Part shown: positions 43,504-57,000 of the stretch, in pieces
Numbering within the stretch: position 1 is the first letter of the stretch
Layout: each line of letters starts with the position of its first letter
Program-made: the position numbers and the translations under genes
The notes under the pieces: model-generated
What the model saw: the letters and a program-made list of their open reading frames with translations, nothing else
Told to the model about the DNA's origin: nothing
Databases searched by the model: none
Assembly (NCBI GenBank): GCA_903882875.1
Contig: CAIRYQ010000026.1
Coordinates: 1-58,680 of the forward strand
Reading direction: 5' to 3'
Source: an uncultured Spartobacteria bacterium
Lineage (GTDB): Bacteria > Verrucomicrobiota > Verrucomicrobiia > Chthoniobacterales > Chthoniobacteraceae
Length of the DNA: 58,680 nucleotides

Positions 43504-43983
43504 ATGGACAAAATCCTGCCGCTCCTGCGCAAAAATGCGCGCGCTTCCGTCGCCGATCTCGCGAAGGCTTCCAGCCTGAGCGAAGCGGACGTGGCCGCAC
43601 ACATCGCGAGGCTGGAGCACGACGGCGTGGTGCTCGGCTACCAGGCGATCGTAGACCCGGAGAAAATCGCGCGCGAAAGCGTGACGGCGGTGATCGAGGT
43701 GAAGCTCACGCCGGAACGCGACGGCGGCTTCAACAAACTGGCCGAGCGCATTTCCAAATTTCCCGAGGTGCAGAGCTGCTACCTGATGAGCGGCGGCTAT
43801 GATCTCATGGTCGTGGTCGAGGGACGCACGCTGCACGAGGTGGCGGGATTTGTAAGCGAGAAGCTGAGCACGCAGAAGGGTGTGATTTCGACGGGCACGC
43901 ATTTCCGCCTGCGCGCCTACAAGGAGAATGGCGTGGAGCTAAAAAAGGAGAACGGCCCCGAGCGGCTGTCCGTCGCGCCGTGA
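43504..43983 (+). CDS. Lrp/AsnC-family transcriptional regulator
   Basis: A 159-residue regulator. Residues 1-50 are the helix-turn-helix (ILPLLRKNARASVADLAKAS, LSEADVAAHIARLEHDGVV) and the ASNC/ACT-like sensor domain follows (about 65-140; AVIEVKLTPERDGGFNKLAE, SGGYDLMVVVEG). It differs from the classical type by a degenerate first helix (no LD--D--IL). Such regulators bind an amino acid and control linked genes; the aminotransferase 217 bp downstream is the natural target. The 206-bp repeat element lies between them. Confidence 0.88.
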   Translation: MDKILPLLRKNARASVADLAKASSLSEADVAAHIARLEHDGVVLGYQAIVDPEKIARESVTAVIEVKLTPERDGGFNKLAERISKFPEVQSCYLMSGGYDLMVVVEGRTLHEVAGFVSEKLSTQKGVISTGTHFRLRAYKENGVELKKENGPERLSVAP

Positions 43984-43989
43984 GTGCAT

Positions 43990-44195
43990 TTAAGATCTCG
44001 GATTTTGGACTTAAGATTTGGGCGGCGCGAGCTCGGTAGCCGTGCGTTTCGCGCGAGGCGCGACATTTTGCCGCGAGGCAAAGACAAGACGCACGGCACT
44101 CCAAAAAAACTTCCGCAAGCAGCTGCTCGCGCTGCGTCCACGACCTGCGCGAGCGTGCCCCGCAAAAATCTTAAATCCCAAATCTGAAATCTAAA
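43990..44195. repeat. 206-bp inverted-repeat element with heptamer arms
   Basis: Each end is four 7-bp units: TTAAGAT, CTCGGAT, TTTGGAC, TTAAGAT at 43990-44017, and ATCTTAA, ATCCCAA, ATCTGAA, ATCTAAA at 44168-44195. The outer 46 bases pair with the other end at 36 positions. Inside, GCCGTGCGT (44039-44047) pairs with ACGCACGGC (44089-44097) and encloses two perfect hairpins (44049-44063 and 44067-44082), a three-way-junction shape. AGCAGCTGCT at about 44117 is a 10-bp palindrome. The element starts 7 bp after one stop and ends 6 bp before the next ATG. Local AT content at its ends stands out. Confidence 0.75.
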
Positions 44196-44200
44196 ATTCC

Positions 44201-45373
44201 ATGACTCTTTCCAAACACATCGCAAACCACGTCCGCGAGATTCCCCGCTCGGGAATCCGCGACTTTTTTGAAATCGTCCAGACGATGGCCGACGTGATCT
44301 CACTCGGCATCGGCGAACCCGATTTTCACACGCCGTGGCGGATCCGCGAGGCGGCCATCTACGGGCTCGAACGCGGGCACACGGGCTACACGTCGAATCT
44401 CGGCCTGCCGAAATTGCGCGAGCGGATCGCTCAGTATGTGCAGAAGCATTTTCACGTCAGCTACGATCCGGCGACGGAGATCATCGTGACGGTCGGCGTG
44501 AGCGAGGCAATCGATCTCGCGCTGCGCGCGCTTTTGAACCCCGGCGACGAGGTGCTCTACCACGAGCCTTGCTACGTGAGCTACAGCCCGAGCGTGGTGC
44601 TCGCGCACGGCGTGCCGGTTGCGGTGCCGACGTTTGCGAAGGACAACTTCCGCATGACGTCCGAGGAACTCGCGAAACTCATCACGCCAAGATCGAAAGT
44701 GCTGATGATGAATTTCCCCTGCAACCCAACCGGTGCCACGCAGACGCGCGAGGAACTGGAAAAAATCGCGGCACTGTGCGTAAAGCACGATCTCGTCGTG
44801 CTCACGGACGAAATTTACAGCGAGCTGACCTACGACGGCGCACAGCACGTGAGCATCGCGTCGCTGCCGGGGATGCGCGAGCGCACGGTGTTTTTGCACG
44901 GCTTCTCGAAGGCGTTTGCGATGACGGGATTTCGCGTCGGCTACGCGTGCGCGCCGCCCGCGCTCACCGAGGCCATGATGAAGGTGCATCAGTATGCGAT
45001 CCTTTGCGCGAACACGATGGCGCAGGACGCCGCGATCGAGGCGCTCGAAAGTGGTGACGGCGACGTGGCGATGATGCGCAAGGAATACGAGGCGCGGCGG
45101 AATTTCATCGTGCGAAGTTTGAACGATATCGGACTGCCGTGCTTCAAGCCACTTGGGGCATTTTATGTTTTTCCGGACATCCGCAGCACGGGGCTCACGA
45201 GCAAGGAATTTTCGCTGCGACTTTTGCAGGAGAAAAAAGTCGCGTGCGTGCCGGGCCCGGCGTTCGGCGTGAGCGGCGAAGGCCACGTGCGGTGCAGCTA
45301 CGCGACTTCGATGGAGAAGATCAAAATCGCGATGGAACGCATGGCGGAATTTATCGCGGAGGTGCGAAAGTGA
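44201..45373 (+). CDS. PLP-dependent class I/II aminotransferase
   Basis: A 390-residue fold-type I aminotransferase. Key parts: ISLGIGEPDFHTPWRIREAA near the N-terminus, the cofactor pocket (VTVGVSEAIDLALRAL), the substrate carboxylate region NFPCNPTGATQTREEL, LTDEIYSELTYDG with the Asp and Tyr, and the Schiff-base Lys in HGFSKAFAMTGFRVGY. The likely acceptor is an aromatic or branched amino acid, as in the AspB/AraT group, but not certain. It follows the Lrp-type regulator and overlaps the nucleotidyltransferase by four bases. Confidence 0.88.
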   Translation: MTLSKHIANHVREIPRSGIRDFFEIVQTMADVISLGIGEPDFHTPWRIREAAIYGLERGHTGYTSNLGLPKLRERIAQYVQKHFHVSYDPATEIIVTVGVSEAIDLALRALLNPGDEVLYHEPCYVSYSPSVVLAHGVPVAVPTFAKDNFRMTSEELAKLITPRSKVLMMNFPCNPTGATQTREELEKIAALCVKHDLVVLTDEIYSELTYDGAQHVSIASLPGMRERTVFLHGFSKAFAMTGFRVGYACAPPALTEAMMKVHQYAILCANTMAQDAAIEALESGDGDVAMMRKEYEARRNFIVRSLNDIGLPCFKPLGAFYVFPDIRSTGLTSKEFSLRLLQEKKVACVPGPAFGVSGEGHVRCSYATSMEKIKIAMERMAEFIAEVRK

Positions 45374-52473: not shown

Positions 52474-53040
52474 TCACCGACGACCTCCGCTCGTCCACCG
52501 ACGCCCCCCGCCCGTCCGGCGACGACCTCCGCTCGTCCGCCGATGTCGTTGGACGGTTCGGGGAAGGCCCCGGACGGTTCAGGGAAGGCCCCGGATGATT
52601 CAGGGAAGGCCCCGGATGGTTCGGGGAAGGCCCCGGACGATTCAGGGAAGGCCCCGGACGATTCAGGGAAGGCCCCGGACGATTCGGGGAAGGCCCCGGA
52701 TGATTCGGGGAAGGCCCCGGACAGTTCAGAGAAGGCCCCGGACGGTTCGGGGAAGGCCCCGGACGGCTCGGGGAAGGCCCCGGACGGCTCGGGGAAGGCC
52801 CCGGACGGCTCAGGGAAGGCCCCGGATGGTTCGGGGAAGGCCCCGGATGGCTGGGGGTCAACCCCGGATGGCTGGGGGTCAACCCCGGATGGCTGGGGGT
52901 CAACCCCGGACGGCTGGGGGTCAACCCCGGATGGCTGGGGGTCAACCCCGGATGGCTGGGGGTCAACCCCGGATGGCTGGGGGTCAACCCCGGACGGCTG
53001 GGGGTCAACCCCGGATGGTCGGGGACTGAGCCCGGACAAT
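52474..53040. repeat. 21-bp tandem array with three unit families in one phase
   Basis: The first three to four units are of the CCGACGACCTCCGCTCG type (52474-52557). Fourteen units of GGGGAAGGCCCCGGAYGRT with small changes follow (to about 52850). Then eight units of GGGGTCAACCCCGGAYGGC and one degenerate unit. The spacing stays 21 bp across both family changes. Every unit has a short GGGG-N4-CCCC hairpin (families two and three) and the word CGGAY. All frames stay open and read peptides such as GSGKAPD and GWGSTPD. The array lies between the converging DUF1015 and kinase genes. I see no gene in it. Confidence 0.9.
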
Positions 53041-54084: not shown

Positions 54085-57000
54085 CGCGACGGCGAGCACA
54101 TCCATCGCGGTGCGGTTGACCGCAGTCTGCACGACCTTGCCGGTGGCGGCGTCCCAGAGGACGATCCATTCCTCCGAGCCGGCATTGCCGCGCTCCGCCT
54201 TGGCCGTGACCAGACCCACGAGCTGCTGGCCGCCGCTGACCCAGCCGAGGTCCCAGAACTTCCTCATGTCCTTGCGCTCCAGCTTGACCGGTTGCTGGCC
54301 GGTGGTGGGATCATACAGGGCCACGCCATTATTGGAATACCCGGTAATGGCCGCGAGATGGTCGCCCCTGGGGCTGAGCCGGAGCAGGGTGAGTCCGTCG
54401 GTTTGCTTGAAGACGGCCGCCTGCTCGGTGTGAGCGCCGGGGTTGCGCAGCAGGAAGAGGTCTTGGGCTTCGTTTTTACCGCCGACGTAGCCGATGGCGG
54501 CGAAACGCCCATCCGCGCTCACGCTGGGCCGGCGATAGTGCCCGTCGGACGGCTTCCAGAGCAGTTCCGGGGCGCCGGCCTGCAGCTTTTGCAGCGCGGC
54601 ATGCTGGCCCGGAGCAACAGCAAAGACCACATCATCCGATCCCCAGAAGGCGATGCTGGAACTGGTGCCGCCGCGCAGGGTCCACTTCTCCGGCGTGCCG
54701 GTGAGGTCCCACGCGCGGGAGCTGGCACCGGCCACGAGCAGCTCGCCGGAGAGCGGATGCACGCCCGCGTCCCTGAATTCGCCACTGCCGCCGAGCAAGG
54801 ATTGCAACGGAGCGCCTGTGTTCGCATCCCAGAGCTGGATGGCCTGCCGTCCATCGGGCAGCGTGGCCACGCTCACGAAGCGTGCGCCGTCGGGAGTAAA
54901 GGAGAAGTGCGCGAAGGTGTGCTCTTGCGCATGGAAATCGAAGGCGACTTTTCCATCAGCGAGGAACACGCCCTTGATCCTACCGGCGAAGCCGGTCACA
55001 ATCATCTTGCCGTCGGGGCGGACGGCGATGGGATTCATCTGGTAATTGCCGAGCTGGCGCACGAGCGTGCCGTCCTGCGCGTTCACGAGGCGGCCGCGCT
55101 CCTTGGCACCGTAGGTCACCACCTGCTGGCTGTCCGGGGTGAAGGTTCCCGAGGCCGCATTTCCCTCCGGCTCATACTTCCAGCGGGGCTGGCCGGTGGC
55201 CGCGTCCCAGACGGTGACGAGTGTCGAGTTCCTCTCCACCTGGAGGAGCAGTTTGCCATCGGGGCTGAACTCCAATCGCAGCGTGATGGGCGCTTCCCAC
55301 TCCAGCAGCTTCTTCCCATCCCGCGCGCTGTGGATCACGATGTGGCCTTCACCATCCTGGCTGGCCACGGCGATCCGCTCTCCGTCCGGCGAGAATGCGA
55401 GCTTGCGCGCCCCGCCGGACTTCGGCGGGAAAACGGGCGTGAACTCCAGCAGGCTGGCGCCGGTGCGCACATCCAGGAGGGTGACTTTGCCGCGGCTGTT
55501 CGCGATGGCGAAGACGCCGGGACGCCGCGGATCCGCCGCCACGCCGCTAGTCGTCTCGACGGTGCGGATGCGGGCGATGGAGCTGTCGGACTGATCGAGC
55601 AGGTAATGCCACGTCGAGTCGCGCAAGTCCTCGGGCACCTCGCCGAGCGCGGCCTGCATCTCCGGGCCATTGCCCTCCCGCCGCGCCGCCTCGGCTAGGG
55701 CGAGTGCGGACTTCACGAGCGCATGACGGGCAGCCTCGCCGTTCTGCACGGCCTCGGCCTCGGCCTTCGTCGCGCGAGCGGCTTCGGCCTTTGCCTCCGC
55801 CTCGGAGGCGATGGCGCTCTGCTCGCCCGCGACCGCGCGGCGCTCCTTCGCGCGAAGATTGATGACAAACCACACTGCAAGCGCGGTGATGAGCAGCCAC
55901 GCGGCGGCAGCGGTGGTGAAGATGCCCTTGTTGCGCCGGATGAGCAGGGTGAACTGCTTCCAAGCCGAGGCATGCTCCGCGCTCGTGGCAAAGCCATTCT
56001 GATAGGCGAGGATGTCCCGCTGGAGATCCGCGACGCTCGCGTAGCGCGCGGCGGGCTCGAGTGCCATGGCCTTCTTCACCACGGCGGCGAGCGACTCGGG
56101 GATCTTCGATTGCGGAGAGACGAGCGGCTCGATCTCGCCGCGCCCGACCTTGCCGACCATCTCCCACGCATCCGCGCCGGTGACGGAGACGCGCAGCGCG
56201 AGAATCTGGTAGAGGATCGCGCCGAGCGAATAGATGTCGCTGCGCGCATCGAGTTCATCCACCTCGCCGCGCGCCTGCTCCGGCGACATGAACTGCGGCG
56301 TGCCCATGACGGTGCCCGAGAGGGTCGCCGAAATACCGGATACCGGATACGGGATACCGGAAAGGTTCTGCTCCGAGGCACCGTCGGCGTCCGGATGATC
56401 CCTTTCCGGTATCCGGTTTCCGCTTTCCGAAATCCCCACTCGCTTCGCGAGTCCCCAGTCCATGACCAGCGCCTCGCCGTAGTCGCCGACCATGATGTTC
56501 TCCGGCTTCAGGTCGCGGTGGATGACGGATTTGCTGTGCGCAAAGGCGATGGCGTCGCAGACCTTCTGGAAGATGGTGAGCAGCGCGGGCAGCGGATATT
56601 TTTTCAGCGTCTCCGCGTCGTGCGCGGCGAGCTGCGCGAGGACATGTTTGAGGGTGACGCCCTTCACCATCTTCATCGTGTAGTACGGCTGGCCGTTCTC
56701 ATCCACGCTCAGCTCATGCACGGGCACGACGTTCGGGTGCTCAAGCTGGCCGGTGACTTTCGCCTCGGCGATGAAGCGTGAAACTGCGTCGGCGTCGTTC
56801 GTGTCGAGCATCACCTTCATCGCCACCCTGCGCTCGATGGCCGCCTCGCGCGCATCGAGGATCGCGCCCATCCCGCCGCGCGCGACGACCGTGCCGATGT
56901 CATACTTTTTCTCCCGCAGCAACTCCGCCGGAAGCATCGTGCGGATCGCGCGCTGCGCGGGGGCGAGCGACATGTCCGTGGGCTGCTCGCCCTGGAGTCG

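Follow-up and report, generated by a model that had tools for sequence, protein, structure and literature searches.

Tandem arrays of heptanucleotide units are known from cyanobacteria as STRR, which share heptanucleotide tandem units with the arrays reported here; STRR are not known to bracket a gap with inverted arrays. TAACTGA heptamer repeats occur in Beggiatoaceae, Cyanobacteria and Bacteroidetes (MacGregor 2015, PMC4679880) and resemble the present arrays in several respects: they are tandem 7-bp units, mostly intergenic, that run toward a start codon and end a few nucleotides from it, they follow no pattern of gene function, their origin is uncertain, and they are scattered over phyla. 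Reversed TAACTGA sets lie beside a stop codon in Flexibacter litoralis or between stop codons in Microcystis, and in BOGUAY the 169 sets are direct arrays, with one inverted repeat among 170 (PMC4679880). Unlike the TAACTGA repeats, the arrays described below come as two inverted arrays that bracket a gap, with interchangeable words and 4-5 units per arm; neither inverted bracketing as a rule nor word exchange figures in the parts of the TAACTGA account on which this comparison draws (PMC4679880). According to the same source, heptamer repeats have in general been explained by slippage in 7-nt steps (Mrazek 2007, cited in PMC4679880). Heptamer repeats beside start codons have been described without an accepted origin or function.

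Two further kinds of described element bear on the locus. GTAG REPs combine a GTAG tag with a palindrome and are highly enriched in the verrucomicrobium Opitutus terrae, as described in PMC3733652; their likeness to our locus concerns the core hairpin alone (44036-44096, below). MITEs and REPINs, like the elements reported here, are small, non-coding and present in many copies, with two inverted ends that are better conserved than the middle. Terminal inverted repeats of defined sequence and length, a MITE trait, are found here in the elements with AAATC and GAGAGTT words and in the family of genome G033. A literature search, with subscription journals mostly outside its coverage, returned no title on inverted heptamer arms and none of the six array sequences.

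The window, that is, the whole stretch of 58,680 nucleotides analyzed here, comes from an uncultured Spartobacteria bacterium (genome G000) and contains the following features.

43504 to 43983, plus strand: upstream gene, Lrp/AsnC-type regulator (gene call; Pfam AsnC_trans_reg 1.5e-16 and HTH families)
43988 to 44019, minus strand: left arm, an array of heptads that spell AAATCNN when followed outward on this strand (sequence, pattern matches)
44020 to 44164, no strand assigned: core of 145 nt, common to G003, G004, G020 and G024 at this locus (alignments versus shuffles)
44036 to 44096, plus strand: GTAG-tagged palindrome in the core, GTAG and then the stem CCGTGCGT...ACGCACGG
44049 to 44063, plus strand: inner hairpin 1 of a predicted three-way junction (predicted fold)
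44067 to 44082, plus strand: inner hairpin 2 of the same predicted junction (predicted fold)
44166 to 44198, plus strand: right arm, AAATCTT AAATCCC AAATCTG AAATCTA AAATT (sequence, pattern matches)
44201 to 45373, plus strand: downstream gene, class I/II aminotransferase (Pfam Aminotran_1_2 3.3e-74)
56332 to 56435, no strand assigned: second inverted heptamer element, word GATACCG, reading CGGTATC...CTTTCCG (arms, translation, Pfam)

The gap between the stop codon of the Lrp-type regulator (TGA at 43981-43983) and the ATG of the aminotransferase (44201) measures 217 nt and is occupied from end to end, as the original prediction had held: the left arm starts 3-4 nt past the stop, and the right arm stops 2 nt short of the ATG. 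On the plus strand the left arm reads ATTTAAG ATCTCGG ATTTTGG ACTTAAG ATTT, with pattern matches on the minus strand at 43988-44005 and 44002-44019. The inverted arms (43988-44035/44150-44197) are 79% complementary over 48 nt, and their pairing exceeds that of shuffled sequence: the strand folds with a minimum free energy of -93.3 kcal/mol versus a shuffled mean of -67.9 (sd 4.7), with none of 200 dinucleotide shuffles folding as well. Four exact units had been claimed for each end, which overstates their regularity: in the right arm AAATC recurs exactly four times at 7-nt spacing while the last two letters vary (TT, CC, TG, TA), and in the left arm GATTT is exact in two units and altered by one letter in two others (GATCT, GACTT). 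The two arms account for all five matches of the heptamer pattern in the window when up to three mismatches are allowed, against an expectation of 0.11. No Rfam 15 family matched anywhere in the window at gathering score, and no sigma-70-type promoter was found in 43950-44250, where two terminator-like sites lie on the minus strand versus 0.5 expected. Elsewhere in the window, long arrays of 21-bp tandem repeats occur at 1167-1485 (15.2 copies) and at 52475-53025 (rows of 3.3 to 22.7 copies), with 81-92% matches.

Arms and branched core had been taken for a single element, a view that does not hold: the arms recur with other cores, and in related genomes the core is seen at this locus alone. 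Judging by its sequence, what had been called a branched core is a hairpin in its own right, specific to this locus and built like a GTAG REP. The three-way junction, with an outer stem at 44039-44047/44089-44097, is indeed predicted for the window's own sequence, but the orthologous gaps of G003, G004 and G020 have an outer stem with one hairpin, and among the cores folded the junction is predicted for G000 alone. Every pair among the cores of G000, G003, G004, G020 and G024 is similar (0-12 of 200 shuffles as good), whereas most comparisons of these cores with unarmed gaps of the genus do no better than shuffles, the exceptions being G003 with G002 and G006 (0-1 of 200) and, more weakly, pairs such as G024 with G009 (4-7 of 200). 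Across five genomes all 39 cells of the outer stem are paired, and four of its nine pairs have changed on both sides (2 of 500 shuffles); since all of these changes come from one lineage, G020, covariation support for the stem is thin. At this place the core starts with GTAG in G000 and G003, and GTAG is absent in G004, G020 and G024. In design the hairpin matches palindromes that lie close to genes for tyrosine transposases of the RAYT type in G005 (L413) and G006 (L423). Unlike GTAG REPs with their many copies, however, the window's stem is found in one hairpin in 859 kb, its own, among three loose GTAG-palindrome matches, and GTAGCCG is not enriched (279 versus 707 reversed).

A search for core inversion between relatives (20 pairs, both directions, four gaps) gave no consistent pattern, low reverse scores (2-3 of 300) coming from the heptosyltransferase gap (G000-G003 and G004-G003) and the atpD-atpC gap (G000-G003). 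An apparent core reversal in L454/L457 proved to be an artefact of contig orientation, and a core seemingly kept while its arms were respelled (atpD-atpC gap, G004 versus G003, 2 of 300 shuffles) was not significant given the number of pairs tried. In G003 the Lrp-aminotransferase gap is 390 nt long (L062) and holds an inverted repeat of CGCAGAGG-like units nested inside the heptamer arms, giving the appearance of one element having entered another.

The arms themselves were found again in the window's own genome, in its relatives and in other phyla; with these further copies and a pairing better than that of shuffles, the condition set for refuting the original prediction does not apply. In the 5.78 Mb of G000, AAATCNNAAATCNNAAATC with up to two mismatches has 81 matches versus 15 for the reversed control. 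Reading the listed matches locus by locus, and leaving out the AAATCAG type (C36, C111, C126) and the CAATCCG type, we counted 12 AAATC loci, eight of them inverted pairs (C3, C26, C34, C42, C91, C115 and two on C120) and four single arrays (C13, C72, C106, C110). Exact triple AAATC units occur in 46 of the 117 genomes searched. The two-armed AAATC pattern with a 20-50 nt core occurs at 24 places in 13 of these genomes, its backward control in one genome, and the same letters in opposite order, with cores of the same length, in none. At least 116 stretches of the GTDB contig set carry the two-armed pattern, although AT-rich matches among them may partly be due to chance; of the 142 overlapping matches in the 80 stretches listed, 122 comprise six or more units in total, and the phyla among the listed matches include Acidobacteria, Chloroflexi, Planctomycetota, Bacteroidetes, cyanobacteria and Patescibacteria.

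Arms of the same design are also spelled with other words. Using 859 kb of G000 with 603 genes from a simple gene caller, we ranked gaps by the complementarity of their two ends, and values of at least 11 were reached in 6 of 247 codirectional gaps (five of them supplied by the window, C120 and C42, which had known elements and make this sample non-random), 0 of 55 convergent and 1 of 82 divergent gaps, versus 1 of 738, 1 of 162 and 2 of 246 cross-gap controls, respectively. Two of the six codirectional gaps carry other words, GAGAGTT (C30) and GTGACTG (C120). Among arrays in 373 gaps the commonest period was 7 (8 of 373), with 0-2 for periods 5, 6 and 8-13 and six for period 14. GAGAGTT pairs with a 20-50 nt core occur at 42 places in 12 of the 117 genomes, representing six genera and three families, and in opposite order with such cores in none of the 117. 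G003 and G004 hold AAATC and GAGAGTT elements side by side.

Examination of orthologous gaps, with arms judged by eye and gene names backed by Pfam, indicated that the words are interchangeable at one and the same gap. The expected neighbor was present at 22 of 30 loci for Lrp, 27 of 30 for the phosphoesterase, 30 of 30 for atpD and 29 of 30 for accB. Within genus g1, three words are seen in the arms of the atpD-atpC gap: AAATC (G000, G004, G005), GAGAGTT (G002, G003, G006) and AGCACTG (G008). In G001, G007 and G009 this gap measures 18 nt and is without arms, giving occupied and unoccupied alleles of a single gap. Between accB and accC the arms are spelled AAATC in G004 and G012, GAGAGTT in G003, G079 and G101, and AAGGCGG in G047; no arms were seen by eye in the other 25 of the 29 genomes with an accB neighbor. 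At the Lrp-aminotransferase gap, AAATC arms (G000, G003, G004, G020), a mixed pair (G024) and GTGAAAG arms (G033) are found, and inspection by eye showed no arms in 16 of the 22 genomes that have an Lrp neighbor. At the heptosyltransferase gap, G000, G003 and G004 carry the word AAATC, G020 carries GGTTTCT, and G010 carries a CACGAAGG-type pair. Some gaps hold the same word in different families, as before rbfA (G003, G004, G066) and between accB and accC (G003, G079, G101); selection for a function would be another way to read this. Any explanation is clearly constrained by inverted pairs that fill a gap and by words that replace one another at one gap. At the atpD-atpC gaps of G002 and G006 (L251, L254), the outer parts of the arms are near-identical and the center, including the inner units, differs, as if the middle of the palindrome had been replaced en bloc.

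The construction of the arms was examined in 228 AAATC arms from 114 elements, found by a search that itself demanded two units. Counting units with up to one mismatch, five units (100 of 228) and four units (61 of 228) prevail; counting exact units alone, 90 arms have three, 66 have two and 58 have four. Adjacent units share the same two free letters at a frequency of 0.344 versus 0.380 in within-arm shuffles, 998 of 1000 of which are as high, so neighboring units are less alike than expected by chance. Free letters match between the two arms (101 of the 114 elements) no more often than in shuffles (99 versus 98.3, sd 4.3; 248 of 500 as high). The likeness of unit vocabulary is 0.531 within an element, 0.495 with another element of the same genome and 0.302 between random elements, the same-element value being reached in 143 of 2000 within-genome permutations; the free letters in use are mostly a trait of the genome. 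GAGAGTT arms read AGTTGAGAGTTGA-AGTTGAGAGTTGAGAGA on both sides at 40 of 42 places, with a poorly conserved spacer that is not mirrored between arms (96 of 500 shuffles as high), and same-genome pairs of GAGAGTT cores score at least 22 in 1 of 92 cases versus 1 of 780 when shuffled (means 11.5 versus 9.6), a low degree of core sharing that counts against the insertion reading given below. The dissimilarity of adjacent units and the unmirrored free letters thus argue against slippage, arm-to-arm copying and a selected paired stem, and the arm statistics are compatible with reiterated recognition sites.

The outer end of an arm lies within 12 nt of the start codon at 23 of 27 callable borders and within 9 nt of the stop codon at 17 of 19. 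The contexts of 28 loci are 17 codirectional (two with a neighbor missed by the gene caller), five divergent, one convergent, three inside a gene and two open; of the three inside, we regard L181 as real and the other two (L036, L184) as products of wrong gene calls. For the 21 usable loci (omitting the three inside, two without a neighbor, and L003 and L178, where a neighbor was missed), the gap exceeds the element by at most 15 nt in 18, and gaps that short make up 0.4% of intergenic length. In three of the five divergent pairs neither start codon is more than 10 nt away from the element, and the promoters are therefore to be expected within the element or the core that it encloses. The C3 pair of the window's genome lies between convergent genes and abuts one of them alone, and elements also lie between tRNA genes (two in L354, one each in L355 and in L407 of G021). 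The neighbors are diverse, including genes for ATP synthase, biotin carboxylase, ribosomal proteins and heptosyltransferase as well as tRNA genes.

The second element of the window, at 56332-56435, has 29-nt arms that are 86% complementary with 35 nt between them, and lies in frame within a minus-strand FHA/kinase gene (Pfam Pkinase 4.3e-29, FHA). It falls in the kinase activation segment, where the homology to PknB breaks and query residues 199-220 are unaligned, so that it forms an insert relative to homologues. Since arms are found here inside a coding sequence, a gene border is dispensable for them; gene borders are where arms are tolerated or wanted. AAATCAG-type arrays are likewise read inside coding sequence at L181 (G012, C249) and, in frame, at L038 (G000, C36), and such an array can encode a KSEIRNQ-like peptide.

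A related family with similar full-length copies was found in G033. Its members read AAATCCG...core...CGGATTT, with a polarity opposite to that of the window and a core of about 100 nt. Copies of about 150 bp number at least six in G033, including the query copy (L512-L516, L519), and one in G031 (L524). Aligned with the query over 147-155 nt, the six other copies show 74-82% likeness, and the five of them in G033 show 74-79%. The likeness resides mainly in the arms and in the common subterminal sequence into which they lead (GAAACAAAT/ATTTGTTTC); the middle by itself is weakly alike except between L513 and L524, the flanks of which look orthologous. By its sequence, this family has the appearance of a miniature inverted-repeat element and provides the best support for reading the arms as ends of an insertion. 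Because its order is opposite, polarity is a property of the family and not a general law; the finding of no opposite polarity in 117 genomes is valid for cores of 20-50 nt, and the G033 cores lie outside that range. When selected loci were rerun with cores of 10-150 nt, the opposite order appeared in L203, L204, L277, L302, L325, L355 and L484, some of which may join neighboring elements.

Target-site duplication was slightly above permutation for 113 AAATC elements (14 of 300 as high) without being consistent, and below permutation for 40 GAGAGTT elements (295 of 300 as high), so that no consistent duplication was found in either set. The RAYT transposase (PF01797) was considered as a partner; it is present in 13 of 13 genomes, but AAATC or GAGAGTT arms are found at none of the 30 loci examined, and at L413 and L423 GTAG palindromes are found instead of arms. 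Other heptamer arrays (CATTCGC, GGGATGC and AATCCGC) lie, perhaps by chance, within a few hundred bases of RAYT-type genes at L413, L423 and L427. The elements differ from MITEs in having no consistent target duplication, in that their ends are heptad arrays, and in that the gap is replaced and not split; little or no interior seems to be common to the window's family, and no parent was seen at the 30 PF01797 loci. The original prediction had left open a mobile or a regulatory RNA-forming element; the mobile half is favored and the regulatory RNA disfavored, since the variable positions are not complementary between arms, since elements also lie between divergent genes, between tRNA genes and inside coding sequence, and since the G033 family has similar full-length copies. 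With no transposase beside the arms at PF01797 loci and no consistent target-site duplication, mobility is something that we infer.

We favor, with confidence that is evenly balanced, the reading that a small insertion-like element terminates in these arms, which would be its reiterated recognition sites. Each arm would consist of about 4-5 copies of a short recognition word at an exact spacing of 7 bp, the two arms standing in opposite orientation and the DNA between them being a passenger, which in the window would be a locus-specific hairpin of the GTAG type. A putative DNA-acting enzyme would recognize the repeated word and insert the unit or swap it for another, and selection would keep the unit where it is tolerated, in gaps and occasionally in a flexible loop of a protein. 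The outward strand of AAATC and GAGAGTT arms is G-poor, and therefore an arm can directly precede a start codon. The strongest objections are the lack of a consistent target duplication, the lack of an enzyme (PF01797 tested) and the exact fit to the gap, which counts against insertion because insertion alone does not predict that a gap is replaced. The anatomy, the copies, the interchangeable words, the occupied and empty alleles of one gap and the insert within a coding sequence are observations, whereas the enzyme, the movement and the reason for the exact fit are matters of inference. The main rival, which we consider unlikely, holds that the arrays are cis-acting sites for a DNA-binding protein (an operator, nucleoid or partition protein) that mark or insulate gene borders, with selection keeping sites at both ends of a gap and respelling them when the specificity of the protein shifts. 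Omega-type ribbon-helix-helix repressors bind contiguous heptads, and the closeness of arm ends to start and stop codons, the mostly genome-level vocabulary and the occupation of the same gaps in different families all agree with such sites. Two words nevertheless coexist in G003 and G004 and swap at one gap, the neighboring genes are of many kinds, and elements also lie inside coding sequence.

If the arms instead acted as RNA, their pairing would bring the stop codon of one gene of an operon to the next start, or form a stem for processing or stabilization. Such a device accounts for a fold that beats all 200 shuffles, for the codirectional contexts (17 of the 28 loci, and 12 of 18 loci at 17 distinct places in another set) and for the excess of complementary ends in codirectional gaps over their controls, but codirectional gaps are the commonest in any case (247 of 384), and the same element stands in divergent pairs, in three of them within 10 nt of both starts, and between tRNA genes, with its variable positions unpaired between arms; we regard this explanation as improbable. 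Equally improbable is a mutational by-product, in which heptamer slippage would be joined by palindrome-templated repair that copies an array across the hairpin. Slippage in 7-nt steps is the published account of heptamer repeats noted above, period 7 is the commonest in gaps, and in places, such as the heptosyltransferase gap of G000 and G004, the difference between orthologous arms amounts to entire heptads. Slippage predicts that neighboring units are alike, however, whereas they are less alike than shuffled ones; arm length peaks at five units (three if exact) with no steady fall-off, and the order of units is not mirrored between arms.

Returning to the insertion-like reading, we tentatively suggest, as a broader and rather doubtful proposal, that the arms may belong to a class of gap-filling elements spread across many phyla, defined by architecture and not by sequence, with interchangeable words that coexist within a genome and a heptad-reading enzyme system behind it. 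Each member would have a pair of arms in inverted orientation, with about 4-5 heptads apiece, around a free core, and would end at gene borders; polarity would be constant within a family. If units of this kind move, whole intergenic regions, promoters included, could be replaced in one step, and bacteria would possess an overlooked route for swapping them. The pattern is testable, because AAATC matches are found also in records of Chitinophaga, Flavobacterium and cyanobacteria, a part of which belong to named strains.
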